Positions 22,235-39,396 of a DNA stretch of 64,000 bases are shown here, in pieces. Position numbers and translations under genes: made by a program. The stretch is from Roseibium album. GTDB lineage: Bacteria > Pseudomonadota > Alphaproteobacteria > Rhizobiales > Stappiaceae. The notes under the pieces were generated by a model. It was not told the DNA's origin. It was given only the letters and a program-made list of their open reading frames with translations, and searched no databases. The stretch covers positions 186,001 through 250,000 of the forward strand of contig CXTY01000005.1 of NCBI GenBank assembly GCA_001404055.1, in the 5' to 3' direction. Positions within the stretch are counted from its first letter, which is position 1, and the number at the start of each line of letters is the position of its first letter.

Positions 22235-22618
22235 TTACGCGGCAGCGGGTGCTTCGTATGTGATCAGCGCGATGACGCCACCAACCGGATCGACCAGCGT
22301 CGCCATCCGGCCGACACCTGGAATGCTCATCGGTTCGCTGGCAATCGTTGCGCCGAGTGACTTGGCTTTTTCGATCCGCGCGTCAACGTCATCGACGGTG
22401 ACATAGGGAAGCCAGCGGGCTGTATCAGCTTGCATGGGTGGAAAGCCACCGATCTTTTCTTCGCCATTGGTAACAACGGTATATGTTGCTCCCGGCATTT
22501 CCATTTCTTCCGTGTCCCATCCCAGCAGGCCGGTATAAAAGTCCTTCGCCCTGGAACCATCGCCGCTGTGAAGTTCCATCCAGCTGAAGGCACCGTGGGT
22601 TTGCGTCGCATTACTCAT
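22235..22618 (-). CDS. VOC (glyoxalase/bleomycin-resistance) family protein
   Basis: A 127-residue vicinal-oxygen-chelate protein with two beta-alpha-beta-beta-beta units. Recognisable parts are FSWMELHSGDGSRAKDFYTGLLGWDTEEMEM, KIGGFPPM, PYVTVDDVDARIEKAKSLGA and MATLVDPVGGVIALITYE. Substrate unknown. The start at 22618 (MSNATQTHG) is preferred to the one 15 nt upstream. A degenerate second copy lies 3.1 kb to the right, with the same orientation. Confidence 0.88.
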   Translation of the reverse strand: MSNATQTHGAFSWMELHSGDGSRAKDFYTGLLGWDTEEMEMPGATYTVVTNGEEKIGGFPPMQADTARWLPYVTVDDVDARIEKAKSLGATIASEPMSIPGVGRMATLVDPVGGVIALITYEAPAAA

Positions 22619-22747
22619 GTCTATGATCCTCAATTAAAATTGTCGCCTGGCAGGCCCAGGTGATCAGAGGACGGACAAGACTCGGCAAATCCGACAGGGC
22701 ATGAATAATTTTTTGGTTTTCTATGCTGCGTTGAGCACAAGGCTGCC
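22421..22747. repeat. Duplicated block A, intact copy
   Basis: Covers the 5' part of the VOC gene and about 130 nt of its upstream DNA. It is closely similar to 25601-25829 in the same orientation, with an 89-nt deletion in the other copy. The rest of the gap up to 22931 holds no gene or motif that I can recognise. Confidence 0.85.
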
Positions 22748-22931
22748 TATTTAAGCCCGAGAGCGACGCGCAAGTTGCCAGAACTGCTTGCCAGAAGTTA
22801 GTTTCTAACCTTGAAAGAGGGAGACAAGTCTCGGCGGTACACTCATAAATGCGGACAGCCAGCGTCAGCTGGTGACACTGCTTGCGAAGTCGATACCTTC
22901 GACGCGAATGCTAACTTTTCGGACAAATCCG

Positions 22932-23630
22932 TCAGTCCATTCGCACCGTCTTTTCGCTTTTCAGAAACGCTTCTACCCAGTCAGGTACTTGTAAACCCTG
23001 CGCAACTTCCGCGTCTAACGATTTTTCCAATTGGTTTATATGCGCCAAGCTCTTAATAACTTCGTCAATTCGCTCGAATGGGACAACCACCACACCATCG
23101 CGATCGGCCACAATCATGTCACCAGTTTCAATCTCCTGGCCGCCGATTTGAATGGGGAACCCAACCGATCCAGGCCCGGTCATATGAGGTGATGCGGGTG
23201 TAAGACCTGTACACCAAACTGGCAATCCAACCTGCACGATGCCTTCATAATCGCGGACCGGCCCGTCGGTAACAAAACCGGCAGCATCGTTGTTTTTCAT
23301 CATGCCAACAAGTCGATCACCCGCTGCGGCGCAGCCTGTATGGCCTGCAAATGCGGCTACCACCACATCGCCGGCCCTGATGAATTTTAGGGCCGCAAAT
23401 GATGCGAGTACATCTGCAGCACCACAGTCAGCTGTCAATGCCGGGCCGGCGGTAGCGCAGTGCAAATCACGCCCGCCACCAATCGGCTGGATGCTGGGTG
23501 CCAGCGCGCCACCTCCTAGGAGAGCATCCACGACAAACCCAGTTGCCACGCCTTGAAATGCGGAAATCTGCTTCTCCGTCGGACGACGAAATGTGTTTGT
23601 AATCGTAAGGGATGGTAGAGGTTCAATCAC
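22932..23630 (-). CDS. RraA-like protein (HMG/CHA aldolase family)
   Basis: A 232-residue protein of the RraA/4-hydroxy-4-methyl-2-oxoglutarate aldolase superfamily. Family motifs are GGGRDLHCATAGPALTADCG, GDVVVAAFAGHTGCAAAGDRLVGMMKNN (phosphate/pyruvate loop), and FVTDGPVRDYEGI with the metal/substrate DGxxRD. Members are Mg-dependent pyruvate-releasing aldolases or oxaloacetate decarboxylases; classical RraA (an RNase E inhibitor) is shorter. The start is GTG 23630 behind GGAGAAAGG, because the longer frame overlaps the upstream small-membrane-protein gene. Confidence 0.82.
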   Translation of the reverse strand: MIEPLPSLTITNTFRRPTEKQISAFQGVATGFVVDALLGGGALAPSIQPIGGGRDLHCATAGPALTADCGAADVLASFAALKFIRAGDVVVAAFAGHTGCAAAGDRLVGMMKNNDAAGFVTDGPVRDYEGIVQVGLPVWCTGLTPASPHMTGPGSVGFPIQIGGQEIETGDMIVADRDGVVVVPFERIDEVIKSLAHINQLEKSLDAEVAQGLQVPDWVEAFLKSEKTVRMD

Positions 23631-23673
23631 TGTTCTACCTTTCTCCAAGAAATCCTGTTCATGAGCCCACCTT

Positions 23674-23874
23674 CTAGTCTTCTTTGTCGCGGCCTTGGCG
23701 GCTCTCAAAAAAGGCAAGCACAAGATTGAGACAACCAAACAGGAGAATGGCCCCGAAGACCCAAGCTCCAAATGCTTTCGGATGAATGCCGACCGGTAAG
23801 TTAAAAGTCATAACCACCAGACCGAACAGTGCAGCCAACATGATGAGAGGAAGGATGGAGTCCTTGAGGTTCAC
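23674..23874 (-). CDS. Small membrane protein, paralogue 1
   Basis: A 66-residue protein, family not recognised. It has two hydrophobic helices (about 8-28 and 34-55) linked by PVGIHPKAFG, and a charged tail ESRQGRDKED. It shares 60 of 66 residues with the protein encoded at 26478-26678. Comparison with that paralogue, whose start is ATG, sets this start at GTG 23874 (VNLKD...). A longer frame to 24003 has no counterpart in the paralogue. An inner-membrane location is inferred. Confidence 0.75.
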   Translation of the reverse strand: MNLKDSILPLIMLAALFGLVVMTFNLPVGIHPKAFGAWVFGAILLFGCLNLVLAFFESRQGRDKED

Positions 23875-24018
23875 GGGTTCTTCATCCAATCGTTGCATTG
23901 ATGCAAGTTCGTGTTTCAATGATGCAATCAACGAAACATATTTGCTCCGATACGAAAAGTGGCAATCAATTTCCGAGACATCTCTGGACGTCGCCATGAT
24001 CAAGGTCTCCGGTGGCGT

Positions 24019-25600: not shown

Positions 25601-25709
25601 CGTATCAGCCTGCTTGGGTGGAAAACCACCGATCTTTTCGTCGCCATTGGTCACCACCGTGAAGTTCCATCCAGCTGAAGGCACCATTGGTTTGCGACGC
25701 ATTACTTAT
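25601..25709 (-). pseudogene. Remnant of a VOC-family gene
   Basis: The 5' portion of a paralogue of the VOC gene at 22235-22618. The start codon position reads ATA instead of ATG (25707-25709). The 89-nt internal deletion shifts the frame, and the last two thirds of the gene are absent. Surviving stretches match nearly base for base, so the decay looks fairly recent. It cannot encode a VOC protein. Confidence 0.88.
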
Positions 25710-25829
25710 GTCTTTGACCCTCAATTAAAACTATCGCTTGGCAGACCCAGGTGATCAGAGGAGGGACGAGGCTTGGCAAATCCGAAAGGGCACGAGTAAT
25801 TTTTTAGCGGCGTTGAGCGCAAGGCTGCT
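25601..25829. repeat. Duplicated block A, degenerate copy
   Basis: Aligns with 22421-22747. An 89-nt deletion removes the counterpart of 22481-22569, between 25660 and 25661. Similarity stops near 25829, about 90 nt before the GFA gene, and starts abruptly at 25601. Confidence 0.85.
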
Positions 25830-25919
25830 ATTCATCATGAATGTTCAAAGGGTGATCTCTTGGCCTACGGGTACGCGCGCAACTGTGCCACTGTCGCTTT
25901 TAAGAAAGAAGGATGCAAC

Positions 25920-26348
25920 ATGACCTATCATGCACAATGTTCTTGCGGAGCGGTGCAGCTGGCGGCAGAGGGTGAACCGCTTGTTCAGTGTTACTGTCAT
26001 TGCAATTCGTGCCGCAGCCTTACCGGAAGTCCTGTCAATACGCCGGTTCTTTGGCCCCGAGCAAGTGTGCGCTTTGTTTCGGGAGAAGACAAAGTCAGGC
26101 GTTATTCGAAAAGCGGGCACCGGGAAGGCGGCACTTTGTCATGCGGTGTTTGCAACGGTCTGATTGGAGCGGTTTTGCCCGAAGCGGATCTGTTCGATAT
26201 TTTTGCGGGGCTCCTGTCCGATCTGGACTTCAAACCGACCGTGCATATCAATTACGAAAATTCCGTGCTTCCCATCCGGGATGGCTTGCCGAAACTGAAA
26301 GACATGCCTGAGGAGTGGGGCGGCAGCGGAGAATTTCTTGAAGAGTAA
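25920..26348 (+). CDS. GFA (CENP-V) family zinc protein
   Basis: A 142-residue protein of the glutathione-dependent formaldehyde-activating enzyme family. Zinc ligands are visible as CSCGAV near residue 8, CYCHCNSCRSLTG near residues 28-40, and CGVCNG near 79; the usual structural and catalytic Zn sites are therefore complete. Real formaldehyde activity is proven for few members. ATG 25920 sits behind AAAGAAGGA; a longer frame from 25860 lacks a good site. It lies between the VOC remnant and the second small-membrane-protein gene. Confidence 0.9.
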   Translation: MTYHAQCSCGAVQLAAEGEPLVQCYCHCNSCRSLTGSPVNTPVLWPRASVRFVSGEDKVRRYSKSGHREGGTLSCGVCNGLIGAVLPEADLFDIFAGLLSDLDFKPTVHINYENSVLPIRDGLPKLKDMPEEWGGSGEFLEE

Positions 26349-26477
26349 TAACGAGAACTGACGCGTTGAGTTTCTTTTGTTTCCAACGTGGAGTTCTGCT
26401 CGATTTCGTCGGTCCTGAATTGCGGTCTACAAGCTTGCAGCAATTTGATCTTTGTGTCGCAGTTATGATTCCGCGTC

Positions 26478-26678
26478 CTAGTCTTCTTTGTCGCGGCCCT
26501 CGCGGCTTTCAAAAAAGGCAAGCACAAGGTTGAGACAACCAAACAGGAGTATCGCGCCGAAGACCCAAGCTCCAAATGCTTTCGGATGAATGCCGACCGG
26601 AAAATTAAAGGTCATAACAGCCAGTCCAAAAAGGGCGGCCAGCATGATGATCGGGATGATGGTGTCTTTGAGGTTCAT
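26478..26678 (-). CDS. Small membrane protein, paralogue 2
   Basis: A 66-residue protein with two membrane helices, almost identical to the one encoded at 23674-23874 (six substitutions: T6S, I8L, I10L, A20V, F26L, E60Q relative to it). The ATG at 26678 is preceded by GGATGAG. It is followed on the same strand by nothing for 3 kb, but lies 32 nt after the sigma-factor gene, so it may be the third gene of that operon. Function unknown. Confidence 0.78.
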   Translation of the reverse strand: MNLKDTIIPIIMLAALFGLAVMTFNFPVGIHPKAFGAWVFGAILLFGCLNLVLAFFESREGRDKED

Positions 26679-26710
26679 TAGTGTCTCATCCGGTGGAATA
26701 AAGTGCGCTA

Positions 26711-27964
26711 TCAATCTTCGAGGGAATTTTTCAGTTCGTCAATTTTCTTTTGCAGATGCTGGCGTTCAACTTCTGTCCCGGCATGCGAGAGCGCGACCTC
26801 ATAGGCTTGCTGCGCCTGAGATGTTCTACCCAGCTCCGCCAGAAACGCGGCCTTGACCGTATGGTAGCTCGCATATCGCTCAAGCGGGCCTTCCAGTTGT
26901 ACCAGTAAATTCAACGCTTCTTTCGGTCCTTTCAGTTTTGCCACGACGACCGCTCGATTGAGGGCAACCACCGGCGAAGGGCGAACATGCTGAAGGGCAC
27001 GATAAAGCCTGTCCAGCTCCGCCCAGTCGGTCTCTTCGAAACGTAGTGCGCTCGCTTGTGTGGCTGCGATGGCTGCCTCGATCTGAAATGGACCAGGGGT
27101 TGCGCGGCGGAGCGCGGCCTCCAGCAATATGTTGCCCTCGGCAATCTCCTTCCGATCCCAGGTGCTCCTGTCCTGATCTTCCAACGTAACCGCTTCACCG
27201 TTAGGGCTCAGACGGGCGTGCCGCCTGGAATGATGAATAAGACACAAGGCCAGTAGCCCGCGTAACTCTGGTGCTTCTGGAAAGAGACGCACCAGAAGTC
27301 GGGCAAGGCGAATGGCTTCCTCGCATAACGTCTCACGGATCAGCTGGGGACCTTGCGAAGCTGAATAGCCTTCGTTGAAGATCAGGTAGATGGCATTGGC
27401 GACAGCAGAAAAACGGTCAGCGCGCGCTTTTGCGTCCGGGTCCTCGTAAGGCAGTTTAGCAGCCTGGAGACGCTTCTTTGCTCTCGTGATCCGTTGTTCC
27501 ATCGTTTTGGGTTGGACCAGGAACGCGCGTGCGATCTCATCAACCGAAAGGCCCGCGACGATCTTGAGGGACAGCGCAATCTGCTGGTCCTTACGCAGGA
27601 CCGGATGGCAGCAGGTGAACAGCAATCGCAAGATGTCATCCCGGTAGACCGACTGGTCAAGCGATTGCGTCAGACCCTCTTCCGGGTGCGCGCCATCAAA
27701 TGCCGGTTCCAGGTTTTCTGGCGCTGTCAGCGTTTCCCGGCTTTTCTTGCGAATGAGGTCAATCCCGGTATTGCGACCAGCCACGATCAGCCAGGCAACA
27801 GGGTCCTTGGGAAGAGAGTCGCGCTGCCAGGATTTCAAAGCCCTCAAAGATGCTTCCTGAAAGGCATCTTCTGCCAGATCGATATCGCCAAAGACGCGGT
27901 TCAGGGCCGCAAGGACGCGCGGGCGAGCCGCCCTAAGATGCGTCGATAACAAGCCGCTCTGCAT
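26711..27964 (-). CDS. ECF sigma factor of the ECF42 type
   Basis: A 417-residue extracytoplasmic-function sigma factor. Region 2 reads FGDIDLAEDAFQEASLRALKSW near residues 26-47; region 4 reads LSVDEIARAFLVQPKTMEQRITRAKKRL. An unusual 200-residue helical C-terminal extension follows (DUF6596/TPR-like, for example AIRLARLLVRLFPEAPELRGLLALCLIHHSRR). That extension and the neighbouring DGPF gene define group ECF42, whose members lack an anti-sigma factor. Start 27964 is preferred because 28018 has no ribosome site; it overlaps the DGPF gene by 32 nt. Confidence 0.88.
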   Translation of the reverse strand: MQSGLLSTHLRAARPRVLAALNRVFGDIDLAEDAFQEASLRALKSWQRDSLPKDPVAWLIVAGRNTGIDLIRKKSRETLTAPENLEPAFDGAHPEEGLTQSLDQSVYRDDILRLLFTCCHPVLRKDQQIALSLKIVAGLSVDEIARAFLVQPKTMEQRITRAKKRLQAAKLPYEDPDAKARADRFSAVANAIYLIFNEGYSASQGPQLIRETLCEEAIRLARLLVRLFPEAPELRGLLALCLIHHSRRHARLSPNGEAVTLEDQDRSTWDRKEIAEGNILLEAALRRATPGPFQIEAAIAATQASALRFEETDWAELDRLYRALQHVRPSPVVALNRAVVVAKLKGPKEALNLLVQLEGPLERYASYHTVKAAFLAELGRTSQAQQAYEVALSHAGTEVERQHLQKKIDELKNSLED

Positions 27965-28325
27965 TTTTGAAATCGGCCCCTTCGAAATACTCAATCGGAC
28001 GTACTTCAATACGGCCATGATCCAGTGGCAGGATTTTTACAGCATCGATAGCTTCTTCGAGAGATGGGCAATCGAGCAGATAAAATCCCATGAATTGTTC
28101 TTTGGTTTCGGCAAAGGGGCCATCGGTAACGAGAAACTCGTCGCTTTCCCTGCTGATGGTTACCGCCGTGCCGGTCGACATCAGTTTGGCAGCAGCGGCA
28201 AAGTTCTTGTTTGTTTTGGTTTGTTCATGAAAAGTACCGTGTTTCTTCAATAGTTCCTGATGTTCGTCAGGGGTGAGTGCGTCGATGAAATCTTCACTGG
28301 CGTAAATCAATACGGAAAAAAGCAT
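27933..28325 (-). CDS. YCII/DGPF-domain protein
   Basis: A 130-residue ferredoxin-like-fold protein with the hallmark TDGPFAETKEQFMGFYLLDC (DGPF at about residue 71). DGPF proteins pair with ECF42 sigma factors and are common targets of them; their enzymatic function is unknown. It begins MLFSVLIYASEDF at 28325 behind GAGGA; the longer frame has no counterpart in the family. It is the first gene of the DGPF-sigma pair. Confidence 0.9.
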   Translation of the reverse strand: MLFSVLIYASEDFIDALTPDEHQELLKKHGTFHEQTKTNKNFAAAAKLMSTGTAVTISRESDEFLVTDGPFAETKEQFMGFYLLDCPSLEEAIDAVKILPLDHGRIEVRPIEYFEGADFKNAERLVIDAS

Positions 28326-28361
28326 GTTCAAGTCCTCTGGTTCCATGGGAATTGTGACCAA

Positions 28362-28390
28362 GGAACGTTTCTGCCGGAGCTTACCCGACA
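28362..28390 (-). promoter_or_regulatory. Possible ECF-type promoter of the DGPF-sigma operon
   Basis: On the minus strand TGTCGG (28390-28385) and CGTTCC (28367-28362) are spaced by 17 nt, about 37 nt before the DGPF start. This resembles a bipartite ECF promoter with a TGTCG-type -35. Autoregulation is expected for ECF42 but the match is short. Confidence 0.3.
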
Positions 28391-28535
28391 GTGGCTTCAA
28401 TAAAAACACGCAAAGCTAGTTCTCATTGGCTTGATTGTGACTCCGCGTGTGTGCAACGCTACAAGCGATTTTCGCCAAATGTCGCTGTTTCAAGTGCGCC
28501 GTTTTGAAGGTGCACTAATCCTCAGGGAGGTGTTC

Positions 28536-30464
28536 ATGCGCACTGGATTTTTGACCGCACTCACAATTCTTTCTTCTTGTTCAATTGTTTATGCGCAGGA
28601 GTTTGAGCTGAACAAGGATCAGCTGCAGGACGTCTATCCCGGACACGCGTATTCTCCATACGCAGGACGAAATATTCCGGAAAGACCGCTCTGGGGCGAC
28701 ACGCATCTTCACACTGGGCAGTCAATGGATGCAGGCGGCTTTGGAGCCCGTCTCTCCCAGGAAGACGCATGGCGCTTTGCGCGCGGTGAAGAAATCATCG
28801 CTTCGTCCGGTCAGCCGGTCCGGCTTTCCCGCCCGCTCGATTGGTTGGTCATCACCGAACATTCCGACGGTATGGGGCTGATCACTGACATTCTCGACGG
28901 AGTGCCCGGCGTTACAAGATTCGAACAGGGACGCAAATGGTCGAAGGGCTATCGGGCGGGGGGACAGGAAGCTGTCGACGCTACTTTGGATCTGATCGGC
29001 AACTTCAGTCAGGGTACTGTGGAGCCGGAACTTATGGCGCAGTATCAACCCGGCGCTCGGCGGTTTGCCTCCATCTGGTCGGATAACGTCAAGACAGCCG
29101 ACGCATTCAACGAACCCGGTGATTTTTCGGCAATCATTGGATTTGAGTGGACCTCGCTTGTTAAGGGCAACAACTTGCACCGCAACGTGATTTTCCGGGA
29201 CGATGCGGAAAGGGCAGGTCAGGTGGTGCCTTTTACAATGACCGCACCGTTTGGCAGCTCGGACCCGCTCGATCTTTACAAGTGGATGCAGGCCTATGAG
29301 GATAAAACGAACGGAGCGGTCCTCGCGCTTGCGCACAACGGCAACCTCTCCAACGGCATCATGTTCCCGGTCGATACCCAGTTCACCGGCAAGGCAATCG
29401 ACAAGGATTACGTCGAACTGCGCGGCAAATGGGAGCCGCTTTACGAGATCACGCAGATCAAGGGAGATGGCGAGGCACATCCTTTCCTGTCGCCCAATGA
29501 CGAATTTGCCGATTATTACAATTGGGACAAGGGCAATCTGGATCTCTCTGTCGCCAAAACCGACGACATGCTGGCAGGCGAATATGCCCGCGAAGCCTTG
29601 AAAAACGGCATGCTGCTGGAAGAAAAGTTTGGCACTAATCCTTACAAGTTTGGCTTCTCAGGTGCCACCGACAGCCACACGGGCTTGACAACCTTTGAGG
29701 AAGAAAACTTTTTTGGCAAGCATACCGGCTATGAGCCATCTGCGGAGCGCCTGACGCACCCGTTCGTCAAGACCGAAAATGGTGAACTGTTTGCCTGGCA
29801 AATGGTTGCATCCGGAATTACCGGCGTCTGGGCAGAAGAAAATACGCGCGAAGCCATTTTCGATGCCATGCAGCGCAAGGAGGTCTACGCCACAACCGGA
29901 ACGCGGATGGCGGTCCGCCTGTTCGGTGGCTGGGACTTCGCGCAGTCCGACCTCAATACGCGCAGCCCAGGCATACTTGGGTACAGCAAGGGTGTGCCCA
30001 TGGGCGGCGATCTGATGCCTAAACCCGAAGCGGTGGAAGCACCGTCTTTCCTGGTTTATGCACTGAGAGATCCGATCGGTGCCAATCTGGACCGGATCCA
30101 GATCGTCAAGGGTTGGGTCGATAGCGACGGGAAGACACAGGAAAAGGTCTTTGACGTTGCCTGGTCAGATGACAGGAAACCCGGCGCGGACGGAAAAATT
30201 CCGGCGGTTGGTAATACGGTGAATCTTGAAAATGCCAGCTGGACCAACACCATCGGTTCATCTGAACTGGCGACGGTCTGGACCGATCCGGACTTTGAAC
30301 CCGGTGAACGGGCTTTCTATTACGCCCGTGTCCTGGAGATCCCGACTCCACCCTGGTATGCCTATGACGCGTTCCGCTATGGCATTGAGATGCCAGAAGG
30401 CGCGCCGACCAGTCAGCAAGAACGGGCATACACATCGCCGATCTGGTATACGCCTGAAACCTGA
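28536..30464 (+). CDS. Secreted DUF3604 protein with PHP-like metal motifs
   Basis: A 642-residue exported protein. The start at 28536 follows GGGAGG and gives the signal peptide MRTGFLTALTILSSCSIVYA; an upstream frame adds 35 non-signal residues. DUF3604 is typified by GDTHLHTGQSMDAGGFG. Metal-ligand motifs like those of the PHP/amidohydrolase-type superfamily are visible: H57xH59, E108-H109-S-D111, E204, H214, H267 (ALAHNGN), H315 and D379-S-H381. A binuclear or trinuclear metal hydrolase, possibly a phosphoesterase, is inferred. It is followed by a foldase and a HupE-like membrane protein in the same direction. Confidence 0.87.
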   Translation: MRTGFLTALTILSSCSIVYAQEFELNKDQLQDVYPGHAYSPYAGRNIPERPLWGDTHLHTGQSMDAGGFGARLSQEDAWRFARGEEIIASSGQPVRLSRPLDWLVITEHSDGMGLITDILDGVPGVTRFEQGRKWSKGYRAGGQEAVDATLDLIGNFSQGTVEPELMAQYQPGARRFASIWSDNVKTADAFNEPGDFSAIIGFEWTSLVKGNNLHRNVIFRDDAERAGQVVPFTMTAPFGSSDPLDLYKWMQAYEDKTNGAVLALAHNGNLSNGIMFPVDTQFTGKAIDKDYVELRGKWEPLYEITQIKGDGEAHPFLSPNDEFADYYNWDKGNLDLSVAKTDDMLAGEYAREALKNGMLLEEKFGTNPYKFGFSGATDSHTGLTTFEEENFFGKHTGYEPSAERLTHPFVKTENGELFAWQMVASGITGVWAEENTREAIFDAMQRKEVYATTGTRMAVRLFGGWDFAQSDLNTRSPGILGYSKGVPMGGDLMPKPEAVEAPSFLVYALRDPIGANLDRIQIVKGWVDSDGKTQEKVFDVAWSDDRKPGADGKIPAVGNTVNLENASWTNTIGSSELATVWTDPDFEPGERAFYYARVLEIPTPPWYAYDAFRYGIEMPEGAPTSQQERAYTSPIWYTPET

Positions 30465-30475
30465 CCGCGTTTGAT

Positions 30476-30504
30476 ATGCAAGCAGGTATCATGCCTGCTT
30501 GCAT
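30476..30504 (+). terminator. Intercistronic hairpin between DUF3604 gene and ppiC-like gene
   Basis: ATGCAAGCAGG (30476-30486) and CCTGCTTGCAT (30494-30504): perfect 11-bp stem, 7-nt loop, no T-run. It probably protects the upstream mRNA or lowers downstream expression. Confidence 0.6.
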
Positions 30505-30527
30505 CCAAGGAAATTTCGGGAACAGTC

Positions 30528-31367
30528 TTGTCGACAATCTATCGATTTTTACGCCAGCCGCTTTTGCACTTTCTGGTGCTCGGCGGGTTGATATTTGCCC
30601 TCTATGATCTGGTCACACCGGAGGTGGCAAAGGTTGTTGGTGATCCCAAGACCGAAATTGTTGTTACGCAACTCCAGGTCGAGCGGCTGACCACCGAGTT
30701 CCAGGCTATCTGGCAACGTCCACCGACATCTGAAGAACAACAAAAGCTGATCGACAATTTCATTCGCGAGGAAGTGCTTGTTCGCGAAGCGCTGCGCATT
30801 GGTCTCGATCGGGACGACACTGTCCTGCGCCGCCGGTTGGTGCAAAAAATGGAATATCTGGCAGCGTCCGCTGCGCGCGCGCGCAAACCAACCGACGAGG
30901 AATTGGTCAGCTACTACCAAAACAACCAGCAAAACTATCTTCGTCCAGGGCGTATCGCTTTCGAACAGATTTTCTTGGGCGAGAAGATTGATGAAACCCT
31001 GGTCGGTGAAATTCAGGCGCAATTGAATGACGGCGTACCTGCAATGGAGCTTGGCAAACGGACTCTGCTGCCATCGTCGCTCGGGATTTCAGCCCGGGCA
31101 AAAGTGGATGGACTGTTTGGCGATGGCCTCTTTGAGAGGCTTATGGATCTTGAAGGAACTGACTGGCAAAAACCTCTGAAATCCGGCTATGGGTTTCATC
31201 TGATCCGTATTACCGACAAGCAGAAGGCAGAGCAGCTATCCTTCGAAGAGGCAAGAAAATTCGTTTCGGAGGATTGGTCTCTTCAGAAATATACCGAATC
31301 CAAGGACCGTCAGCACGAGGCTCTACGGGGGCAGTATCGTATTACTGTCGAGGAGAAGGTGAATTGA
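30528..31367 (+). CDS. Membrane-anchored parvulin-type peptidyl-prolyl isomerase
   Basis: A 279-residue periplasmic foldase held by one N-terminal helix (HFLVLGGLIFALYDLV, about 14-29). A SurA/PpiD-like helical segment (IDNFIREEVLVREALRIGLDRDDTVLRRRLVQKMEYL) precedes the parvulin domain, which ends SGYGFHLIRITDK. The start is taken as TTG 30528 after GGGAACA, since the longer frame runs through the hairpin; confidence in that start is moderate. It overlaps the next gene by 4 nt (TTGA). It may fold the DUF3604 protein. Confidence 0.85.
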   Translation: MSTIYRFLRQPLLHFLVLGGLIFALYDLVTPEVAKVVGDPKTEIVVTQLQVERLTTEFQAIWQRPPTSEEQQKLIDNFIREEVLVREALRIGLDRDDTVLRRRLVQKMEYLAASAARARKPTDEELVSYYQNNQQNYLRPGRIAFEQIFLGEKIDETLVGEIQAQLNDGVPAMELGKRTLLPSSLGISARAKVDGLFGDGLFERLMDLEGTDWQKPLKSGYGFHLIRITDKQKAEQLSFEEARKFVSEDWSLQKYTESKDRQHEALRGQYRITVEEKVN

Positions 31368-32374
31368 GCCGCTCGATAGTGTTTGCTCTGCTGTTGGTAC
31401 TGACCGGCTTGTTCGCGCCGTCCTTGTCGCGCGCGCACGAACTGCAGCCGGGCTATGCGGCGCTTGAACAAATCGACCAGAGCAACTGGAAGGTTTTCTG
31501 GCGCACGCCTGATGTCTCCGGCAAACCCATGGCGATCGATCTGCTGCTGCCTTCAATTTGTCAGCCTCAATCCGGACCGGCAACAGTTCCAAAGAGCGGA
31601 GCCTGGGAAACAGGCTGGATTGCGACCTGCGGAGGCAGCCTCCTCGGACAGAAGCTGATTATTTCCGGATTGGAAGCAACGAAGACCGATGTTCTGGTGC
31701 GTTTCGCGCCGCTAGACCAGTCCGCGGTGTCGCTGCGCCTGACTGCCTACCAGCCAAGCCTTATATTGCCAAGAGAACCCGGTCAGTGGGAAGTTTTTTC
31801 GACCTATGCGGGGTTGGGCTTCGAACACATTCTTGAAGGCTGGGATCATCTTCTTTTTCTTTTTGCGCTGCTGATCCTGATCAAGGGGTTCTGGAGGCTC
31901 GTCGGTGCGGTCACCGCCTTCACAGTGGCGCATAGTCTGACACTTGTCGCCTCGACAATGAACTGGATTACTTTACCTGCTGCGCCAGTAGAAGCCGTGA
32001 TTGCGCTTTCTATTGTTTTTCTGGCAAGCGAGATTGTTTTGACAAAACCAGGCACGAAACGTCTGTCGCAATCGGCGCCGTGGCTGGTAACATTTGCCTT
32101 CGGACTGCTGCACGGGCTTGGGTTCGCGGGTGCGTTACGAGAAATCGGGCTGCCGCAGTCAGATATTCCGCTTGCATTGTTTGCTTTCAACGTCGGCGTT
32201 GAAGCAGGTCAACTGGCATTTGTGCTCGCGGCAGGATTTCTGTTCTGGCTGCTGTCCCTGCCATTTGGTCGTCAATCCGTGCTGGGCTACCGAGCGATTA
32301 CAGTGGCACTGGCTTACGCGATCGGCGGGTGGTCAAGCTACTGGCTGATCGAGCGGATTGTGAGTTTTTCATAA
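31364..32374 (+). CDS. HupE/UreJ-type membrane protein
   Basis: A 336-residue protein: signal peptide (MSRSIVFALLLVLTGLFAPS, cut before AHELQPGY), a periplasmic domain of about 130 residues, then six or so membrane helices. The signature GFEHILEGWDHLLFLFALL followed by VAHSLTL and GLLHGLGFAGAL carries the histidines of the HupE/UreJ_2 family, whose characterised members move nickel or cobalt. The start is TTG 31364 behind GGAGAAGG and overlaps the foldase stop. Metal and direction of transport are not known here. Confidence 0.87.
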   Translation: MSRSIVFALLLVLTGLFAPSLSRAHELQPGYAALEQIDQSNWKVFWRTPDVSGKPMAIDLLLPSICQPQSGPATVPKSGAWETGWIATCGGSLLGQKLIISGLEATKTDVLVRFAPLDQSAVSLRLTAYQPSLILPREPGQWEVFSTYAGLGFEHILEGWDHLLFLFALLILIKGFWRLVGAVTAFTVAHSLTLVASTMNWITLPAAPVEAVIALSIVFLASEIVLTKPGTKRLSQSAPWLVTFAFGLLHGLGFAGALREIGLPQSDIPLALFAFNVGVEAGQLAFVLAAGFLFWLLSLPFGRQSVLGYRAITVALAYAIGGWSSYWLIERIVSFS

Positions 32375-32425
32375 GCGAACGGTTTCACTTATAGAGCCAT
32401 CGCACAGAAGTTGCTGATCAGCTTT

Positions 32426-32689
32426 TCAACGTTTGCGCAGCTCAGTTGGATCGACAACGAGTCGCTCCTTTTGCGACTGACGAGGGTCAGGCATGTTTCC
32501 CTCGCTGTAGCCACTTCCATAGGGCGTCCCATTCGACAGAGGGCTTTCAGGTTCTGAAACCTTGAAGTCGCGTTTGGCCTTGTCAGGATTTGTGGCTCTA
32601 AGAAAAATCACGACAACGGTGATTACGCAGATGAGCCCAATCCAGACGGGTAGCGGAATCGCCGCGAGTTTTTCAATTGTTTCAGTCAT
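32426..32689 (-). CDS. Small single-span membrane protein
   Basis: An 87-residue protein, family not recognised. One hydrophobic helix (LPVWIGLICVITVVVIFLRA, about 13-32) is followed by a hydrophilic tail rich in Pro, Ser and charged residues ending DPTELRKR. ATG 32689 behind GGAGAAG gives this form; the longer frame has no ribosome site. It is convergent with the HupE-like gene and upstream-independent of the transaminase. Its topology suggests an inner-membrane protein with a cytoplasmic tail. Confidence 0.65.
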   Translation of the reverse strand: MTETIEKLAAIPLPVWIGLICVITVVVIFLRATNPDKAKRDFKVSEPESPLSNGTPYGSGYSEGNMPDPRQSQKERLVVDPTELRKR

Positions 32690-32840
32690 TTCTTCTCCAG
32701 GGAGTACCTTGGGGACGCAGATACAAATACGTGTTTGGTCTGGAAAATCAATCGCTGATTGTTTTGGTGGTTTCCCAAATGACAACAGGCAGGATCGTGT
32801 TACCCACGTTCCCGGTTCACTCTCACGAACAAAAGCGGGA

Positions 32841-34235
32841 CTACCTCAGCCAGCCATCCTGCTTCAGTGTGTGATGCGTTTCGTCCAGCGTCTTTTCCAC
32901 TGTTGCCACCAGATGATCAGCTTCTTCGTGACTGAGAACAAGAGGTGGGGAGATGATCATTCCATCGCGGACCGCACGCATCACCATGCCGTTGCCGAAG
33001 GAAATATCCCGGCAGATAGTGCCGGCTGTGCCGACCTCTCTGAAAGGCTTCTGCAGGTTGGCTTTATCAGGCACCAATTCCAGCGCGCCAACCAGTCCTG
33101 CCATGCGGGCTTCGCCGACAAGTGGATGGTCGCCAAGCTTCAACCAGCGCTCCTTCAAATAAGGACCGATGTCGCTCTTCACCCGTTCGACCAGGCCTTC
33201 ACGTTCAATGATTTCCAGATTGGCTAGCGCAGCGGCAGCACAAACCGGGTGGCCGGAATAAGTGTAGCCGTGATTGAAGTCGTCTCCGGCAAGCATCAAT
33301 CCCTCCACGACACGATCAGAAACCATGACGCCGCCCATCGGCAGGTAGCCGGACGTCAGGCCTTTGGCGATCGGCATCAGGTCCGGTTTCATGCCGTAAT
33401 GGGTGGAGCCGAACCATTCGCCAAGTCGGCCGAACCCACAGATAACCTCGTCCGAGACGAACAGAATATCCCGTTCGTCCAATATCCGGCGGACTTCCGG
33501 CCAATAGGTGTCGGGCGGGATGATGACGCCGCCAGCGCCCTGGATGGGTTCGGCAATAAAGGCGGCGACCTTGTCTTCGCCAAGTTCGTCGATCGCCTGT
33601 TCCAGCTTGCGGGCCGCAAAGATTCCGAATTCATCGGGGCTCATGTCTTGCCCTTCACCGAACCAGTAGGGCTGGTCGATGTGATGCACGCCTGAAACCG
33701 GCAGATCGCCTTGAACGTGCATGGCTTTCATGCCGCCGAGACTGGTGCCTGCCAGTGTGGACCCGTGATAGCCGTTCCAGCGACCGATGATCACCTTCTT
33801 GTCCGGCTTGCCCATCTTGTCCCAGTAGGTGCGTACCATGCGGAACACGGTGTCATTGGCCTCCGAGCCGGAAGAACAATAAAAAACCTTGTTGATGTGG
33901 GCGGGCGCCAGCTTGGCGAGTTTTTCGGAAAGCGCGATTGCCGGCGGATGAGTGGTCTTGAAGAACGTGTTGTAATACGCCAGTTCATTCATCTGGGCGT
34001 AGACAGCGTCGGCAATCTCCTTGCGGCCATGTCCAACCTGGACACACCACAGGCCCGCCATGCCATCAAGGATCTTCTTGCCGTCGGAATCCTGGAGCCA
34101 GACGCCGTCAGCGCTGGTAATGATCCGGCTGCCTTCTGCGTTCAGAGACTTCATGTCGGAAAAAGGATGCCAATGATGGGCAGCATCGAGTTCCTGAAGG
34201 GCCTTGGTCGGATAGATGTTGGAATGAGCCGTCAT
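32841..34235 (-). CDS. spuC: Class III aminotransferase, polyamine:pyruvate type
   Basis: PLP-dependent transaminase, 464 residues. Motifs: HWHPFSDMKSL near the start, VFYCSSGSEANDTVFRMVRTYW (PLP phosphate), AAFIAEPIQGAGGVIIPP, FVSDEVICGFGRLGEWFGS, and the PLP lysine in PIAKGLTSGYLPMGG. These match putrescine/cadaverine:pyruvate transaminases (SpuC) and related omega-amino transaminases. Location 32 nt after a glutamine-synthetase-like ligase and beside potFGHI favours a polyamine substrate. The SpuC name is by analogy with Pseudomonas. Confidence 0.83.
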   Translation of the reverse strand: MTAHSNIYPTKALQELDAAHHWHPFSDMKSLNAEGSRIITSADGVWLQDSDGKKILDGMAGLWCVQVGHGRKEIADAVYAQMNELAYYNTFFKTTHPPAIALSEKLAKLAPAHINKVFYCSSGSEANDTVFRMVRTYWDKMGKPDKKVIIGRWNGYHGSTLAGTSLGGMKAMHVQGDLPVSGVHHIDQPYWFGEGQDMSPDEFGIFAARKLEQAIDELGEDKVAAFIAEPIQGAGGVIIPPDTYWPEVRRILDERDILFVSDEVICGFGRLGEWFGSTHYGMKPDLMPIAKGLTSGYLPMGGVMVSDRVVEGLMLAGDDFNHGYTYSGHPVCAAAALANLEIIEREGLVERVKSDIGPYLKERWLKLGDHPLVGEARMAGLVGALELVPDKANLQKPFREVGTAGTICRDISFGNGMVMRAVRDGMIISPPLVLSHEEADHLVATVEKTLDETHHTLKQDGWLR

Positions 34236-34267
34236 GGCATGAACTCCAAAGAAATTGGGAAAAGGCG

Positions 34268-35674
34268 TCAGACGTTGAGAAGCAGGTATTCCCGCTCCCA
34301 GGCGCTGATCACTGACATGAAGGTTTCGAATTCTTCGTATTTGATCGCCCGGTAAGTGGCGATGAAGGTTTCGCCGAAGATCTCGATCATCTCTTCGGAA
34401 TTTTCCAAGCTTGCGACGGCTTCAGGTAGCCCCCTTGGCAGGGATTTCGCCATCTCGGTGCAATCGTCAGCTCGCGGTGCATCCGGCTTCAAGTCATTGA
34501 TAATGCCCAGATAACCGCAGGCAAGGCTTGCAGCAATGGAAAGATACGGATTGGCATCGGAGCCGGGAATCCGGTTTTCAAGACGCCGGGCATCCGGGCT
34601 TGAATAGGGAACACGCAAGCCAACGGTTCGGTTGTCGTAACCCCAAAAAACATTGACGGGGGATGTCGATGTCTTGGAAAAGCGCCGATAGGAATTCACG
34701 AAAGGCGCCATGATGCTGGTCACCTTAGGCAGGTAACGCTGATGGCCCGCAATGAATGACAGGAATTCCGGTGTTTCTTCGCCGTTTTCGCCGGAGAAGA
34801 TGTTTTCACCCGTTTCAATGTCGAGCACCGATTGGTGGATATGCATGGCCGAACCGGGCTGGTTGGACATCGGCTTCGACATGAAAGTCGCATACATGTC
34901 GTGGCGCAGCGCCGCTTCCCGAATGGTGCGCTTGAACAAAAAGACCTGATCAGCCAACACCAGCGGATGACCGTGACGCAGATTGATTTCCATCTGCGCG
35001 GCACCTTCTTCGTGGATCAGGGTGTCGATCTCCAGGCCCTGTTTCTCCGAAAGGTCATAGATGTCGTCAATGAGGTCATCGAACTCGTTGAGCGCAGAAA
35101 TGGAATAGGATTGGCGACCTACTTCCGGGCGCCCGGACCGGCCACGCGGCGGCTCCAGCGGATAGTCCGGATCCGTGTTGGGACGCACCAGGTAAAACTC
35201 CAGTTCCGGGGCGACAATCGGCTCCCAGCCCTTGTCGTGATACAGCTGCAGCACGCGCTTCAGTACGTTGCGCGGAGCTGTTTCCACCGGGATACCATCA
35301 CGCGTATAGGCGTCATGGATGAGCTGGGCTGTTGGATCAGCTTCCCAGGGAACAGTGGTCAATGTGCTGTAATCGGCGCGGAAATAGAGGTCTCCATCTG
35401 TCGGGCTGTGTTGAAAGCGCTCGTCATCATCCGGATAGTCGCCTGATATCGTCTGGGCGAAAATCGAGGCCGGCATGGTCATGACCGGGCCGGAAAAGAA
35501 TTTTTCGGACGGCATCATCTTGCCGCGAGCGACGCCCGCAAGATCCGGCACAATGCACTCGATGTCCTGAATGTTGCGCGAGCTCAACCAGTCTCTTGCA
35601 GCGTCCTCGTCGGGAACGCCCCGCAAACTGTCTATCGGGTTCTGTTTTTTGCTGGCGGGTGTTTCAGCAGTCAC
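34268..35674 (-). CDS. Glutamine-synthetase-family ligase (gamma-glutamylpolyamine synthetase type)
   Basis: A 468-residue GS-fold enzyme, ATP-dependent. Catalytic parts seen: APELEFYLV, GAAQMEINLRHG, SAMHIHQSV, PVNVFWGYDNRTVGLRVPYSSPDARRLENRIPGSDANPYL. It lacks the C-terminal adenylylation-site region of GlnA and fits the PuuA/SpuI/SpuB subgroup that glutamylates putrescine or spermidine. The start is GTG 35674 with GGAG at ideal spacing; an in-frame TTG 12 nt upstream is the alternative. Co-transcribed with the transaminase; a GTGATCAC palindrome lies upstream. Confidence 0.85.
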   Translation of the reverse strand: MTAETPASKKQNPIDSLRGVPDEDAARDWLSSRNIQDIECIVPDLAGVARGKMMPSEKFFSGPVMTMPASIFAQTISGDYPDDDERFQHSPTDGDLYFRADYSTLTTVPWEADPTAQLIHDAYTRDGIPVETAPRNVLKRVLQLYHDKGWEPIVAPELEFYLVRPNTDPDYPLEPPRGRSGRPEVGRQSYSISALNEFDDLIDDIYDLSEKQGLEIDTLIHEEGAAQMEINLRHGHPLVLADQVFLFKRTIREAALRHDMYATFMSKPMSNQPGSAMHIHQSVLDIETGENIFSGENGEETPEFLSFIAGHQRYLPKVTSIMAPFVNSYRRFSKTSTSPVNVFWGYDNRTVGLRVPYSSPDARRLENRIPGSDANPYLSIAASLACGYLGIINDLKPDAPRADDCTEMAKSLPRGLPEAVASLENSEEMIEIFGETFIATYRAIKYEEFETFMSVISAWEREYLLLNV

Positions 35675-35784
35675 GAGGAGCTCCAATTGGTTGGCGCGGT
35701 TTCGAGGTTGAACCGATACGAGGCACGGGCGTAGTCGATGGGGCCCGCGTCGTTACTAATAGCCTAAAAATTCCAAATTCAGGT

Positions 35785-35802
35785 ATTTTGTGATCACAAA
35801 AT
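35785..35802. promoter_or_regulatory. Operator 1, GntR-type palindrome
   Basis: ATTTTGTGATCACAAAAT, a perfect 18-bp palindrome, 110 nt upstream of the ligase gene that is followed by the transaminase. The inner TTGTGATCACAA fits the TNGTnnnACNA-like sites of FadR/FCD-class GntR regulators. The GntR gene lies directly adjacent. Confidence 0.75.
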
Positions 35803-35822
35803 GACACGGGTCAGTCACAGGA

Positions 35823-36539
35823 TCAAGTTTTGCCTTGCACAGCGAGGAGCTCCTTCCCCAGCAAGCCCATGCCATCGTTGATATCGGCGGCAATGGCACT
35901 GCGTAGAGCGTCCTCATTCTGCAGCTCTATGGCCCTGATAGCTTCTTTGTGGCGATCATCCAGGCTGACTGTCCCGACACGCCCGTAAACAGTGCGCATG
36001 AAGGGTGCGAATTGCAGCCACAGGCTGTCGATCAGCGGCAAGAGAACTTCGGACCCTGAGGCCCGGTAGATGTGGAAATGAAAGGTGTGATTGAGCCGCA
36101 TGTAGGATTCCGCGTCGCCGCTCAGAATACACTGGTCAATGTCATCGTCGACGGCCTTCAGCCGCTTGGCATCCTTCGAAGTCAAGTGAGGCAGAGCAAG
36201 GGTTGCAAGCTCTGGCTCAAGCAGAAGTCTTGCCTTGAGGACTTCCTGGTAACGGGCAGGGGTCATGTCGGGCACCTGGACACGGCCGTTGGGTTTGACC
36301 TCCAGAGCGTTTTCCGCCGCAAGTCTTTGAAGAACTTCGCGAACCGGCATAGGACTGACACCAAGTTCGGCTGCCAAGCCGCGTAGTGTGACAGCTTTCC
36401 CGGGAATGAAACGTCCTGTGAGGAGGCCAGAGCGTACCGCCCGGTCGACCTGTTCGCGTGCAGCGCCCCGGGTGGAGGTGGGGGCGGTGTCGCCACCTTT
36501 GCTCGGGCCGGATTGTAATGCGGAGCGTCTGACCGCCAA
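35823..36539 (-). CDS. GntR-family regulator, FCD (FadR) subfamily
   Basis: A 238-residue regulator. The winged HTH covers GAAREQVDRAVRSGLLTGRFIPGKAVTLRGLAAELGVSPMPVREVLQRLAAENAL. The FCD ligand domain follows, with metal-binding-type residues in ARLLLEPELATLAL, MRLNHTFHFHIYRASGS and DDRHKEAIRAIE. Placed between two glutamine-synthetase-family genes reading away from it in opposite directions, it is the probable repressor of this polyamine locus, acting at the two GTGATCAC sites. Ligand (a polyamine or its gamma-glutamyl derivative) is inferred. Confidence 0.88.
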   Translation of the reverse strand: MAVRRSALQSGPSKGGDTAPTSTRGAAREQVDRAVRSGLLTGRFIPGKAVTLRGLAAELGVSPMPVREVLQRLAAENALEVKPNGRVQVPDMTPARYQEVLKARLLLEPELATLALPHLTSKDAKRLKAVDDDIDQCILSGDAESYMRLNHTFHFHIYRASGSEVLLPLIDSLWLQFAPFMRTVYGRVGTVSLDDRHKEAIRAIELQNEDALRSAIAADINDGMGLLGKELLAVQGKT

Positions 36540-36601
36540 TGTGACCTTCTCCTATGCGCTGCAGAAGCAAAATTCGCGATCTGCCTTGACAGAGTTCACC
36601 G

Positions 36602-36616
36602 AAAGTGATCACATTT
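36602..36616. promoter_or_regulatory. Operator 2, GntR-type half-conserved palindrome
   Basis: AAAGTGATCACATTT shares the 8-bp core GTGATCAC with operator 1, with weaker flanks. It is in the 155-nt gap between the GntR gene and the divergent ligase gene, so it could control both the regulator and the ligase-potFGHI transcript. Confidence 0.7.
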
Positions 36617-36694
36617 TTGGAAACGAAGCAAATAAAAGCTGGTGCCGGTCTGATTTGACATGTTGATCAGGGCCGGTCTGAAAGCAGGGGTTAA

Positions 36695-38083
36695 ATGAAC
36701 GAACTTCCCCATCAGATTCTGGAACACCCTGCTGAACCAGGGTGGAAAAAAGATTTTGATGCCTTTCTGGAAGCTCATCCGGATCTGGATACTCTGGAAG
36801 TCGTGTTGCCGGATACGAATGGCGTGCTTCGCGGCAAATGGCTTCCGGGCAATGCTTTGCCGAAAGTCTTCGAGCAGGGTGTCGCCTTTCCCTATTCACT
36901 TTACGGACTGGATGTCTGGGGTCGTGAGGTCGAGGCTACCGGTATGCATCTGGAAACGGGCGACAAGGACGGTGTCTGCTGGCCGATACCTGAAACCCTG
37001 AAACTGGTTCCCTGGACAGACCGGAAAACCGCGCAGGTTCTTCTTTCCATGTATGACCGTGATGGAGAGCCGTTTCTTGCCGACCCGCGCCATGTTCTGG
37101 AAAACATGGTCGAGCGGCTGAAGACCGAGTTCGGTGTTACCGCGACATGCGCCTTCGAACTGGAATTCTACTTGTTTGAAGAAAGCGAAGGTGACTGGAC
37201 AGAGCAGCCTAAGCCCCTGTTTTCAACGCATCTGGGGCCTGCTCGCCAGAACATGTATGCGCTTTCCGATCTTGAAGCCCTTCTTCCGGTGGTCGACGAC
37301 TTGCGCAGGGCCTGTGAAGAGCAAGGCATACCGGCAGATGCTGCAGTTTCCGAAGCTGCCCCCGGGCAGTTTGAGCTGAACCTGCATCACCGGACAAATC
37401 CGTTGCTGGCTGCAGATGACGTCGTCTTGCTGAGAAGGCTGGTTGCCGGCGTTGCCCGCAAACACGAGCTGAAAGCGTCGTTCATGGCCAAGCCGTTTGT
37501 GGAATGGCCGGGCAACGGCATGCATGTGCATGTTTCGATGGAAGACGAAGATGGCAATTTGTTCGCCGATCCTGAAAAAGGTCCTGAGCGGCTTGGTTAC
37601 GCCATCAATGGCCTTATGAAAACCATGCCGGAAGCGCTGTTGTTGTTCATCTCCACGTTCAATGGCTTCCGCAGGATGCAGCCCGGGTCTTATGCGCCTG
37701 CTTCCATTTGCTGGGGTTTCGACAATCGGTCTGTTGCTCTCAGAGTACCTGCCTCCAGCCCGGAAGCTGCCCGCGTGGAACACCGCATCGCCGGAGCTGA
37801 TGCCAATCCCTATCTCGTGTTGACCGGAATTCTGGCAGGAATGCTGGAAGGGCTGACGCAGAAGAAAGATCCGCCGGCGCCGGTAACTGGAAACGCTTAT
37901 GAAAAGCGCAAGAAACGCCTGACCCCATGGATGGACGAAGCCATTGATGCCTTCGAGGCGTCCAAACTGATGAAGCAGGCCGTCGGGAAGGAGATGCACA
38001 AGGTTCTGACCGAGATAAAGCGGGAAGAACTGAACGAGTTTGGGCGGGAGATTTCTTCGCTGGAACGGCAGACATATGTCTGA
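36695..38083 (+). CDS. Second glutamine-synthetase-family ligase (gamma-glutamylpolyamine synthetase type)
   Basis: A 462-residue GS-fold ligase, clearly divergent from the one at 34268-35674. Motifs: VVLPDTNGVLRGKWLPG, CAFELEFYLFEE, APGQFELNLHH, GNGMHVHVSMEDEDGN, ASICWGFDNRSVALRVPASSPEAARVEHRIAGADANPYL. Likely glutamylates a polyamine in the cytoplasm, comparable to SpuB beside SpuI in Pseudomonas. It is the first gene before potFGHI and lies 79 nt downstream of operator 2. Confidence 0.85.
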   Translation: MNELPHQILEHPAEPGWKKDFDAFLEAHPDLDTLEVVLPDTNGVLRGKWLPGNALPKVFEQGVAFPYSLYGLDVWGREVEATGMHLETGDKDGVCWPIPETLKLVPWTDRKTAQVLLSMYDRDGEPFLADPRHVLENMVERLKTEFGVTATCAFELEFYLFEESEGDWTEQPKPLFSTHLGPARQNMYALSDLEALLPVVDDLRRACEEQGIPADAAVSEAAPGQFELNLHHRTNPLLAADDVVLLRRLVAGVARKHELKASFMAKPFVEWPGNGMHVHVSMEDEDGNLFADPEKGPERLGYAINGLMKTMPEALLLFISTFNGFRRMQPGSYAPASICWGFDNRSVALRVPASSPEAARVEHRIAGADANPYLVLTGILAGMLEGLTQKKDPPAPVTGNAYEKRKKRLTPWMDEAIDAFEASKLMKQAVGKEMHKVLTEIKREELNEFGREISSLERQTYV

Positions 38084-38235
38084 GGTTCTGGCCGCCTAAA
38101 ATAGGTGCTGGACAAAGTCTGGCACCATCGCTGATGATTGGAATAGATAACCAAAAACAAGCGGCAATGTCCGTTTGCTATGAGGGACAAGGCCGGAAAA
38201 ATGGCCACCGTCAAACCTCTCAAGGGGAGTTCAGA

Positions 38236-39330
38236 ATGTCATTGAAAAGCATGTTGACCGGAGTTGCAGCGCTTAGTCTGATGAGCGGCGTGGCCTTCGC
38301 CCAGGACCGGACCGTGAACGTCTTCAACTGGTCCGATTATATCGACGAGTCGATCCTGGAAGACTTCACCAAGGAAACCGGCATCAAGGTCGTGTACGAC
38401 GTCTTTGACAGCAATGAGGTTCTCGAAACCAAGCTGCTTGCAGGCAGCACGGGGTATGACGTCGTTGTTCCAACGGCTGACTTCCTGTCCCGTCAGATTC
38501 AGGCCGGTGTGTTTTCCAAGCTGGACCGATCCAAACTGCCGAACCTGTCCAACATGTGGAAGGATGTGGAAGAGCGCGTTGAAATTTATGATCCGGGCAA
38601 TGCCTATTCCATCAACTATATGTGGGGCACCACTGGCCTTGGGTACAATGTTGAAAAAGTGAAGGCTGCGCTTGGTGACGATGCGCCAGTCGACAGCTGG
38701 GATCTGCTTTTCAAGCCCGAAAATATCGAAAAGCTCAACGACTGTGGTGTCTACATTCTGGATGCACCAACCGAATTGATACCAGCTGCGCTCAACTACC
38801 TGGGAATTGACCCCAATTCTGAAAGCAAGGGTGATATTGAGAAAGCAGGCGAGTTGCTCAAGTCCATTCGTCCTTATGTCCAGAAGTACCACTCCTCAGA
38901 GTACATCAATGCGCTGGCGAACGGTGATATCTGCCTCGCAGTGGGTTGGTCCGGCGACGTACTTCAAGCGCGCGACCGCGCTGCGGAAGCCGACAATGGC
39001 GTGACCGTTGAGTACGCCATTCCGAAAGAGGGAGCCCTGATGTGGTTCGACCAGATGGCGATCCCTGCAGATGCCAAGAATATGGACGAAGCACATGAGT
39101 TCCTGGATTACATCATGCGTCCCGATGTGATGGCAAAAGCCTCCAACTACGTCTATTTCGCCAATGGAAACAAGGCTTCGCAGAAACTCCTGAATGAAGA
39201 TGTTATCGGCGATCCGGCGATCTACCCGGACGAAGAGACTGTGAAGAAACTCTACACAAAGGCGCCATACGGGCCGAAGATCAATCGCATCGTTACCCGC
39301 ACCTGGACCTCCGTTAAGAGCGGTCAGTAA
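38236..39330 (+). CDS. potF: Putrescine/polyamine ABC transporter, periplasmic binding protein
   Basis: A 364-residue periplasmic receptor. Signal peptide MSLKSMLTGVAALSLMSGVAFA, with start 38236 behind GGGGAGTTC; a longer frame from 38134 lacks one. Opening mature motif VNVFNWSDYIDESILEDFTKETGIKVVYDVFDSNE is the PotF/SpuD hallmark. Further conserved parts are YDVVVPTADFLSRQI, YMWGTTGLGYN, ICLAVGWSGDV and GALMWFDQMAIP, which form the polyamine pocket. An attenuator-like terminator separates it from the ATPase gene. Confidence 0.92.
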   Translation: MSLKSMLTGVAALSLMSGVAFAQDRTVNVFNWSDYIDESILEDFTKETGIKVVYDVFDSNEVLETKLLAGSTGYDVVVPTADFLSRQIQAGVFSKLDRSKLPNLSNMWKDVEERVEIYDPGNAYSINYMWGTTGLGYNVEKVKAALGDDAPVDSWDLLFKPENIEKLNDCGVYILDAPTELIPAALNYLGIDPNSESKGDIEKAGELLKSIRPYVQKYHSSEYINALANGDICLAVGWSGDVLQARDRAAEADNGVTVEYAIPKEGALMWFDQMAIPADAKNMDEAHEFLDYIMRPDVMAKASNYVYFANGNKASQKLLNEDVIGDPAIYPDEETVKKLYTKAPYGPKINRIVTRTWTSVKSGQ

Positions 39331-39340
39331 GCTTTTTAGA

Positions 39341-39369: not shown

Positions 39370-39396
39370 AATGTTTCTTTGGGTTGGGGGATTGTT

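Follow-up and report, generated by a model that had tools for sequence, protein, structure and literature searches.

Why should a gene for a secreted hydrolase of the DUF3604 family be followed by genes for a membrane-bound foldase and for a protein of a metal-permease family? The question is raised by three genes in a 64,000-nucleotide stretch of Roseibium album DNA (assembly GCA_001404055.1, contig CXTY01000005.1, positions 186,001 to 250,000; hereafter the window), taken from a 6.0 Mb alphaproteobacterial genome. They encode a DUF3604 protein (D), a divergent membrane-anchored parvulin (P) and a HupE_UreJ_2 protein (H). All three were confirmed at the positions first read from the sequence, and the family match of each exceeds the curated threshold. 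A sequence-only reading had taken them for a periplasmic metalloenzyme made together with its own foldase and metal supply. We find that D is coupled to the P-H pair across distant genomes, and we hold, at roughly even confidence, that the P-H pair is devoted to folding DUF3604 enzymes and loading them with metal in the periplasm.

Coupling of DUF3604 genes to the P-H pair

Co-occurrence was assessed in a sample of 349 Pseudomonadota genomes and in a class sample of 190 genomes. A profile of the H clade, built from D-linked H proteins, split the 349 genomes cleanly, with scores either above 310 bits or below 220. Full-length D was found in 22 of them, four of which also belong to the class sample. 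The H clade was present in 22/22 of these genomes compared with 2/327 of the others (Fisher p 7e-33, uncorrected for phylogeny), and likewise in 18/18 of the D-bearing genomes that are not in the class sample. Within the class sample, HupE_UreJ_2 proteins occurred in 17/18 genomes with full-length D and in 33/172 others (Fisher p 2e-10, ignoring phylogeny). The two genomes with the H clade and no full-length D differ in kind. One (G337:C12) carries, immediately upstream of P-H, a partial D that contains a stop codon. The other (G515:C22, locus L190) has an intact P-H, and a search of its genome found no DUF3604, so that D may have been lost recently or P-H may serve a different client. Genomes with D are patchily distributed across many families. 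The conservation of the trio is far above chance, as the sequence-only reading had proposed in treating the three genes as a unit.

The P-H pair and D are no more than 6 kb apart in 51/120 loci, comprising 18/40 class loci and 33/80 loci from named genomes; the latter are those nearest to the query rather than a random draw and 24 of the 80 are cut by contig ends, so that these rates are descriptive. The pair is found downstream or upstream of D, inverted or convergent, and the association therefore survives rearrangement. The commonest spacing between P and H is a 4-nt overlap, and every H scoring above 250 bits has a neighbouring P. Hosts include alpha- and gammaproteobacteria, Myxococcota, Thermodesulfobacteriota, Bacteroidota, Verrucomicrobiota, Nitrospirota, Campylobacterota and Krumholzibacteriota, and the same order can be seen in the public annotation of a Rhizobium leguminosarum plasmid and a Ruegeria plasmid.

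Adjacency is not required for the coupling. D and P-H lie 42 kb apart in Stappia and on different contigs in genome G471. Among 38 genomes with a matched D locus lacking a nearby P-H, the H clade was found elsewhere in 29 and a fused variant in two more; the seven with neither are all metagenome assemblies. Because D and P-H are separated in such genomes, any action of the pair there has to be in trans. Up to five D genes occur in one genome (G091), and D copies outnumber P-H in many genomes, as expected of a shared service module. The partnership read from the sequence therefore holds in a looser form, in that the pair is common to paralogous D genes and may lie elsewhere in the genome, and is not each enzyme's "own". 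Tree distances agree most closely between P and H (Mantel rho 0.57), followed by D and P (0.45) and D and H (0.33). The tightness of the P-H agreement suggests that the pair is the stable core while D copies come and go. A divergent DUF3604 subfamily (L071-L075) has a P-H clade of its own, which places the association in two branches of HupE_UreJ_2.

The trio might instead be a mobile operon whose genes travel together without P and H acting on D. Its spread over phyla and onto rhizobial and roseobacter plasmids is consistent with such travel. The complete co-occurrence in D-bearing genomes extends to those in which D and H are far apart, and inverted, upstream and downstream orders are all kept; in view of both, we consider this account very improbable.

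The predicted enzyme and its membrane-bound partners

The D protein matches PF12228 over nearly the whole profile (E=1.7e-239, 796.6 bits, residues 48-640, profile positions 3-591 of 591). All the PHP-like metal motifs read from its sequence (H57xH59, EHSD 108-111, H267 and DSH 379-381) are present, and D65, E204 and H215 complete a nine-ligand set of the kind that the four PHP motifs supply (H57, H59, D65, H109, E204, H215, H267, D379, H381). These nine positions are invariant across 157 full-length homologues, save one or two gapped fragments. A Q307-x-K309-G310 segment is also invariant, with the exception of one K309 change. Position 108 is D in 152 homologues and E in four, the window carrying the rarer E.

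Searches of the PDB with D by sequence gave no significant match, and Foldseek alone found none for the D model below E 1e-3. The PHP fold of the model (predicted local distance difference test, pLDDT, 89.2) came via VIA-align, which scored 3e38 at Z 16.0 and 2anu at Z 15.2 (both over more than 210 residues), PsfC at Z 12.3 and RNase AM at about 9 (down to 8.8), whereas unrelated structures scored near 4. Neither rare adjacency nor a predicted structure without a metal site, the two outcomes on which the sequence-only reading had staked the set, was found. We regard D as a predicted PHP-fold metallohydrolase with an intact metal site, whose chemistry would be of the phosphoesterase type. It has the fold and the nine metal ligands in common with PHP-superfamily hydrolases (3e38, 2anu, PsfC, RNase AM, Sb-PDE) and differs from them in its length of about 640 residues and its added C-terminal beta-sandwich. 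By fold and location, rather than as an aligned homologue, its nearest characterised analogue is Sb-PDE of Sphingobium TCM1, a secreted PHP phosphodiesterase with a Sec-type signal and 2.1 Zn per subunit (PMC5460133). Assignment to the CehA/McbA carbamate hydrolase family was not adopted (13.6 bits against a cut-off of 80).

Among the 157 D N-termini, classed by pattern rather than by SignalP, 108 carry Sec type I signals, 25 lipoprotein signals and nine an RR motif. Tat export, which would permit metallation in the cytoplasm, was rejected because the nine RR-type signals are probably due to chance. The Sec and lipoprotein signals imply that D crosses the membrane unfolded and would be metallated outside the cytoplasm.

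Apart from P and H, the genes met most often beside D are those for sulfatases, at 6/112 scanned (examples are in L155, L202, L210 and L212); within about 6 kb of D there are six compared with 1.2 expected from genome density in 36 genomes (Poisson p 0.002, with D loci counted approximately). They may hint at a sulfated or esterified substrate. Together with nearby DUF1254/1214 and acyl-CoA dehydrogenase genes, and with several D paralogues per genome, they are what a catabolic operon would show, in which D would split an organic ester and H would transport either the product or the substrate over the inner membrane, with metal supply irrelevant. A single H, however, serves many different D paralogues and neighbourhoods, an ill fit for a substrate-specific carrier, and it has a predicted metal-binding-type ectodomain and metal-permease motifs. 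A catabolic role of this kind thus appears improbable.

The P protein matches PF13145 (E=6.7e-13, 49.9 bits, cut-off 27). Like foldases of the PpiC/PrsA type, it is anchored in the membrane, in its case by the N-terminus, with the Rotamase_2 domain on the periplasmic side, and to this extent the foldase assignment stands. Unlike theirs, its first parvulin active-site His has given way to Gln, a substitution seen in 36/61 homologues, the window included, and only the second (H243 of P0002) is retained in 61/61; the pair of catalytic histidines is thus incomplete. A chaperone role is safer to assume than catalysis. Isomerase activity is uncertain from the residues present, and the substitution does not in itself preclude it.

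The H protein matches PF13795 (E=1.5e-46, 158.4 bits, cut-off 24.5) and, marginally, PF04955 (23.1 bits, cut-off 23); a search of the PDB with its sequence gave no match. Its model (pLDDT 88) consists of a beta-sandwich head (24-138) and a helical membrane domain. The best fold matches of the head are the periplasmic zinc-binding proteins ZrgA (Foldseek E 1.9e-4, probability 1.00; Z 9.9, root-mean-square deviation 2.7 over 103 residues) and PA4063 (Z 9.0-9.5), ahead of Ang-1 (9gce, Z 7.3), the head of another HupE/UreJ-2 protein. The mature N-terminus, with the cleavage site read by pattern, is His in the window (AHEL), as it is for most of the clade; ZrgA and Ang-1 hold metal with histidines located at the start of the mature protein or close to it (PMC9820375; PMC12537917). 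The modelled head is accordingly described as a predicted metal-binding-type ectodomain, for which these analogues point to zinc or copper.

Four loci carry a variant third gene, each with the head kept and Asp at the N-terminus. In two (L146:3000-4115 and L161:12908-13981) there is no PF13795 match, the head being followed by a short membrane segment, behind which comes a new C-terminal domain (...YRAF...E...Y..L..SV...YLQNRE...) that matches no Pfam family. In the other two (L122:4634-6907 and L177:4197-6587), the same extra domain is fused behind the HupE domain. The first two variants indicate that the head, and not the permease, is the constant part of H. In three Thermodesulfobacteriota loci (L125, L155:18362-19126 and L157), a second, classical HupE_UreJ gene lies directly behind H (PF04955, scanned in L155).

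The nickel or cobalt import that had been ascribed to H is not supported, since D would be metallated outside the cytoplasm and an importer would not feed it; the head resembles zinc-binding ZrgA and PA4063 and copper- and nickel-binding Ang-1, and some lineages do without the permease. Import could also serve another end, in a scavenging operon where D cleaves a periplasmic compound such as a metal-binding organic ester, H is an anglerase-permease importing the freed metal, and P folds H or D. Ang-1/HupE_UreJ_2 proteins bind copper (Kd 74 nM) and nickel (Kd 220 nM) and are proposed uptake systems (PMC12537917), the HX5DH motif (H155, D161, H162) is invariant in 18/18 aligned rows of H, and TonB-ExbBD genes adjoin the trio at one Ruegeria locus. 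Against these observations, the permease is dropped in some lineages that keep the ectodomain with P and D, genes for metal uptake do not recur in the neighbourhood, and an Rfam search of window positions 26000-34500 found no B12 or metal riboswitch around the trio. On balance, scavenging seems unlikely.

A candidate folding and metal-loading module

The preferred account, in which P-H services DUF3604 enzymes, would run as follows. D would enter the periplasm through Sec, unfolded and free of metal, and P, anchored in the inner membrane, would hold or isomerise the chain as it emerges. H, whose translation is coupled to that of P, would carry a transition metal (zinc being the likeliest) on the beta-sandwich exposed to the periplasm and pass it to D. 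The membrane domain of H may bring metal to the head or serve mainly as an anchor, and one P-H pair could serve one or several DUF3604 enzymes, adjoining or in trans. Zinc is favoured by the predicted fold and by analogy with Sb-PDE, while copper or nickel would be possible from the likeness to Ang-1. A more specific proposal is that a HupE-family membrane protein with a ZrgA/anglerase-type metal-binding head, coupled to a degenerate parvulin, gives metal directly to exported PHP hydrolases, supplying an extracytoplasmic enzyme and not importing; this we advance tentatively, as somewhat short of probable. A membrane-fixed metal head beside a chaperone fits better than an importer, because the latter would remove metal from the compartment of D. 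What the data show directly is the genes, the conserved active site, the folds as predicted and the phyletic coupling; that H hands metal to D, which metal this is, what P does and the phosphoesterase-type chemistry of D are inferred.

Several points weigh against this account. One genome of the class sample (G052) has a full-length D and no HupE_UreJ_2 protein, and H is also missing from genome G298, whose D-like protein is more divergent. DUF3604 occurs in Chlamydia too (PMC11925237). The congruence of the D and H trees is modest, its rho of 0.33 standing against a best shuffle of 0.29. The mature N-terminal residue is Asp, not His, in about one-fifth of the H clade as well as in all four variants. 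Finally, the authors who described the anglerases read the same architecture as one of metal uptake (PMC12537917).

Close to H in design are these anglerases (Ang-1, Ang-2 and HupE_UreJ_2), which have a signal peptide, an N-terminal His, a beta-sandwich ectodomain and a C-terminal PF13795 domain (PMC12537917). H differs from them in its shorter ectodomain and in its occasional Asp; their reported neighbours are DUF4198, indigoidine A-like and PfkB genes, with neither DUF3604 nor an isomerase in the main text (PMC12537917). ZrgA and PA4063 are soluble partners of an ABC importer, whereas the corresponding domain of H is fused to a HupE-type membrane protein. The HupE nickel permease of the Rhizobium leguminosarum hydrogenase system has HX5DH in its first membrane helices, as H does; unlike it, H has an ectodomain, a putative periplasmic client and only a marginal PF04955 match.

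The Roseibium locus and its wider meaning

The features of the locus are collected in Table 1. The start of H overlaps the end of P by 4 nt (TTGA). The open frame of P spans 30471-31367, extending upstream to a TTG at 30471; the start at TTG 30528 is likely, since homologues begin there and a hairpin occupies the intervening sequence. This hairpin folds far better than shuffled sequences (z -3.8). Of 44 D-to-P junctions, nine have a perfect hairpin of 8 bp or more behind D, compared with well under one expected (a rough 4^-8 estimate). As they lack a T-run, attenuators or mRNA stabilisers are more likely than terminators, and the hairpin may leave D output in excess of that of P-H.

Table 1. 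Features of the D-P-H locus, in window coordinates; domain limits are given in residues of the protein.
Feature	Position	Strand	Description	Basis
Ribosome-binding site of D	28524..28531	+	AGGGAGGT	sequence
D	28536..30464	+	DUF3604 protein, 642 aa, start ATG 28536	PF12228 match
D domains			Sec-type signal; predicted PHP domain, ~45-456; C-terminal beta-sandwich, ~457-642	
Hairpin between D and P	30476..30504	+	perfect 11-bp arms, 7-nt loop, no T-run	
P	30528..31367	+	membrane-anchored divergent parvulin (Rotamase_2), probable start TTG 30528	PF13145 match
Ribosome-binding site of H, within P	31350..31359	+	GAGGAGAAGG	sequence
H	31364..32374	+	HupE_UreJ_2 protein, start TTG 31364	PF13795 match
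H parts			signal peptide; mature N-terminal His (AHEL); ectodomain, ~24-138; HupE_UreJ_2 membrane domain with HX5DH	

In about five loci (L046:9048-9731, L139:9198-9983, L149, L153:2204-3022 and L179:11911-12483), among them the second DUF3604 locus of the same Roseibium genome, D and P-H are separated by a gene for a small secreted protein (ACGxHDP... LN..YP.SLHV) without a Pfam match, a possible fourth gene. An initial count of 12 such loci was discarded, most of the supposed members being shadow frames of H.

On the minus strand, divergent from D, a sigma factor with DUF6596 and a YCII-domain protein (26711-28409) appear independent of the trio. Further upstream, two blocks (155 nt, 87%; 227 nt, 85%) recur in the same order at 22560-23887 and 25651-26691, flanking two different genes, one RraA-like and one GFA-like, as if cassettes had been exchanged between common flanks; within the genome, the second block occurs at these two places only. 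Downstream of H, positions 32841-40554 hold an apparent polyamine catabolism and transport cluster, read from translations only, with an aminotransferase, two glutamine-synthetase-like genes, a GntR-type regulator, a solute-binding protein and an ABC ATPase. An anti-phage defence role was considered and set aside, PADLOC returning no match.

D, P and H all belong to known families, and their combination is visible in public annotation. The impression from the sequence that such a set had no functional description agrees with the literature searched, which covers few subscription journals: it held none for the trio, and for DUF3604 itself only a line in a table of Chlamydia mutants (PMC11925237). 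The trio thus offers a first lead on a large family, and it sets the recently proposed anglerases alongside a specific candidate client enzyme. How Sec-exported periplasmic metalloenzymes acquire their metal is an open question for which few dedicated helpers are known. Because distant genomes keep this enzyme family and its putative helpers together with hardly an exception, the question can be tested directly.

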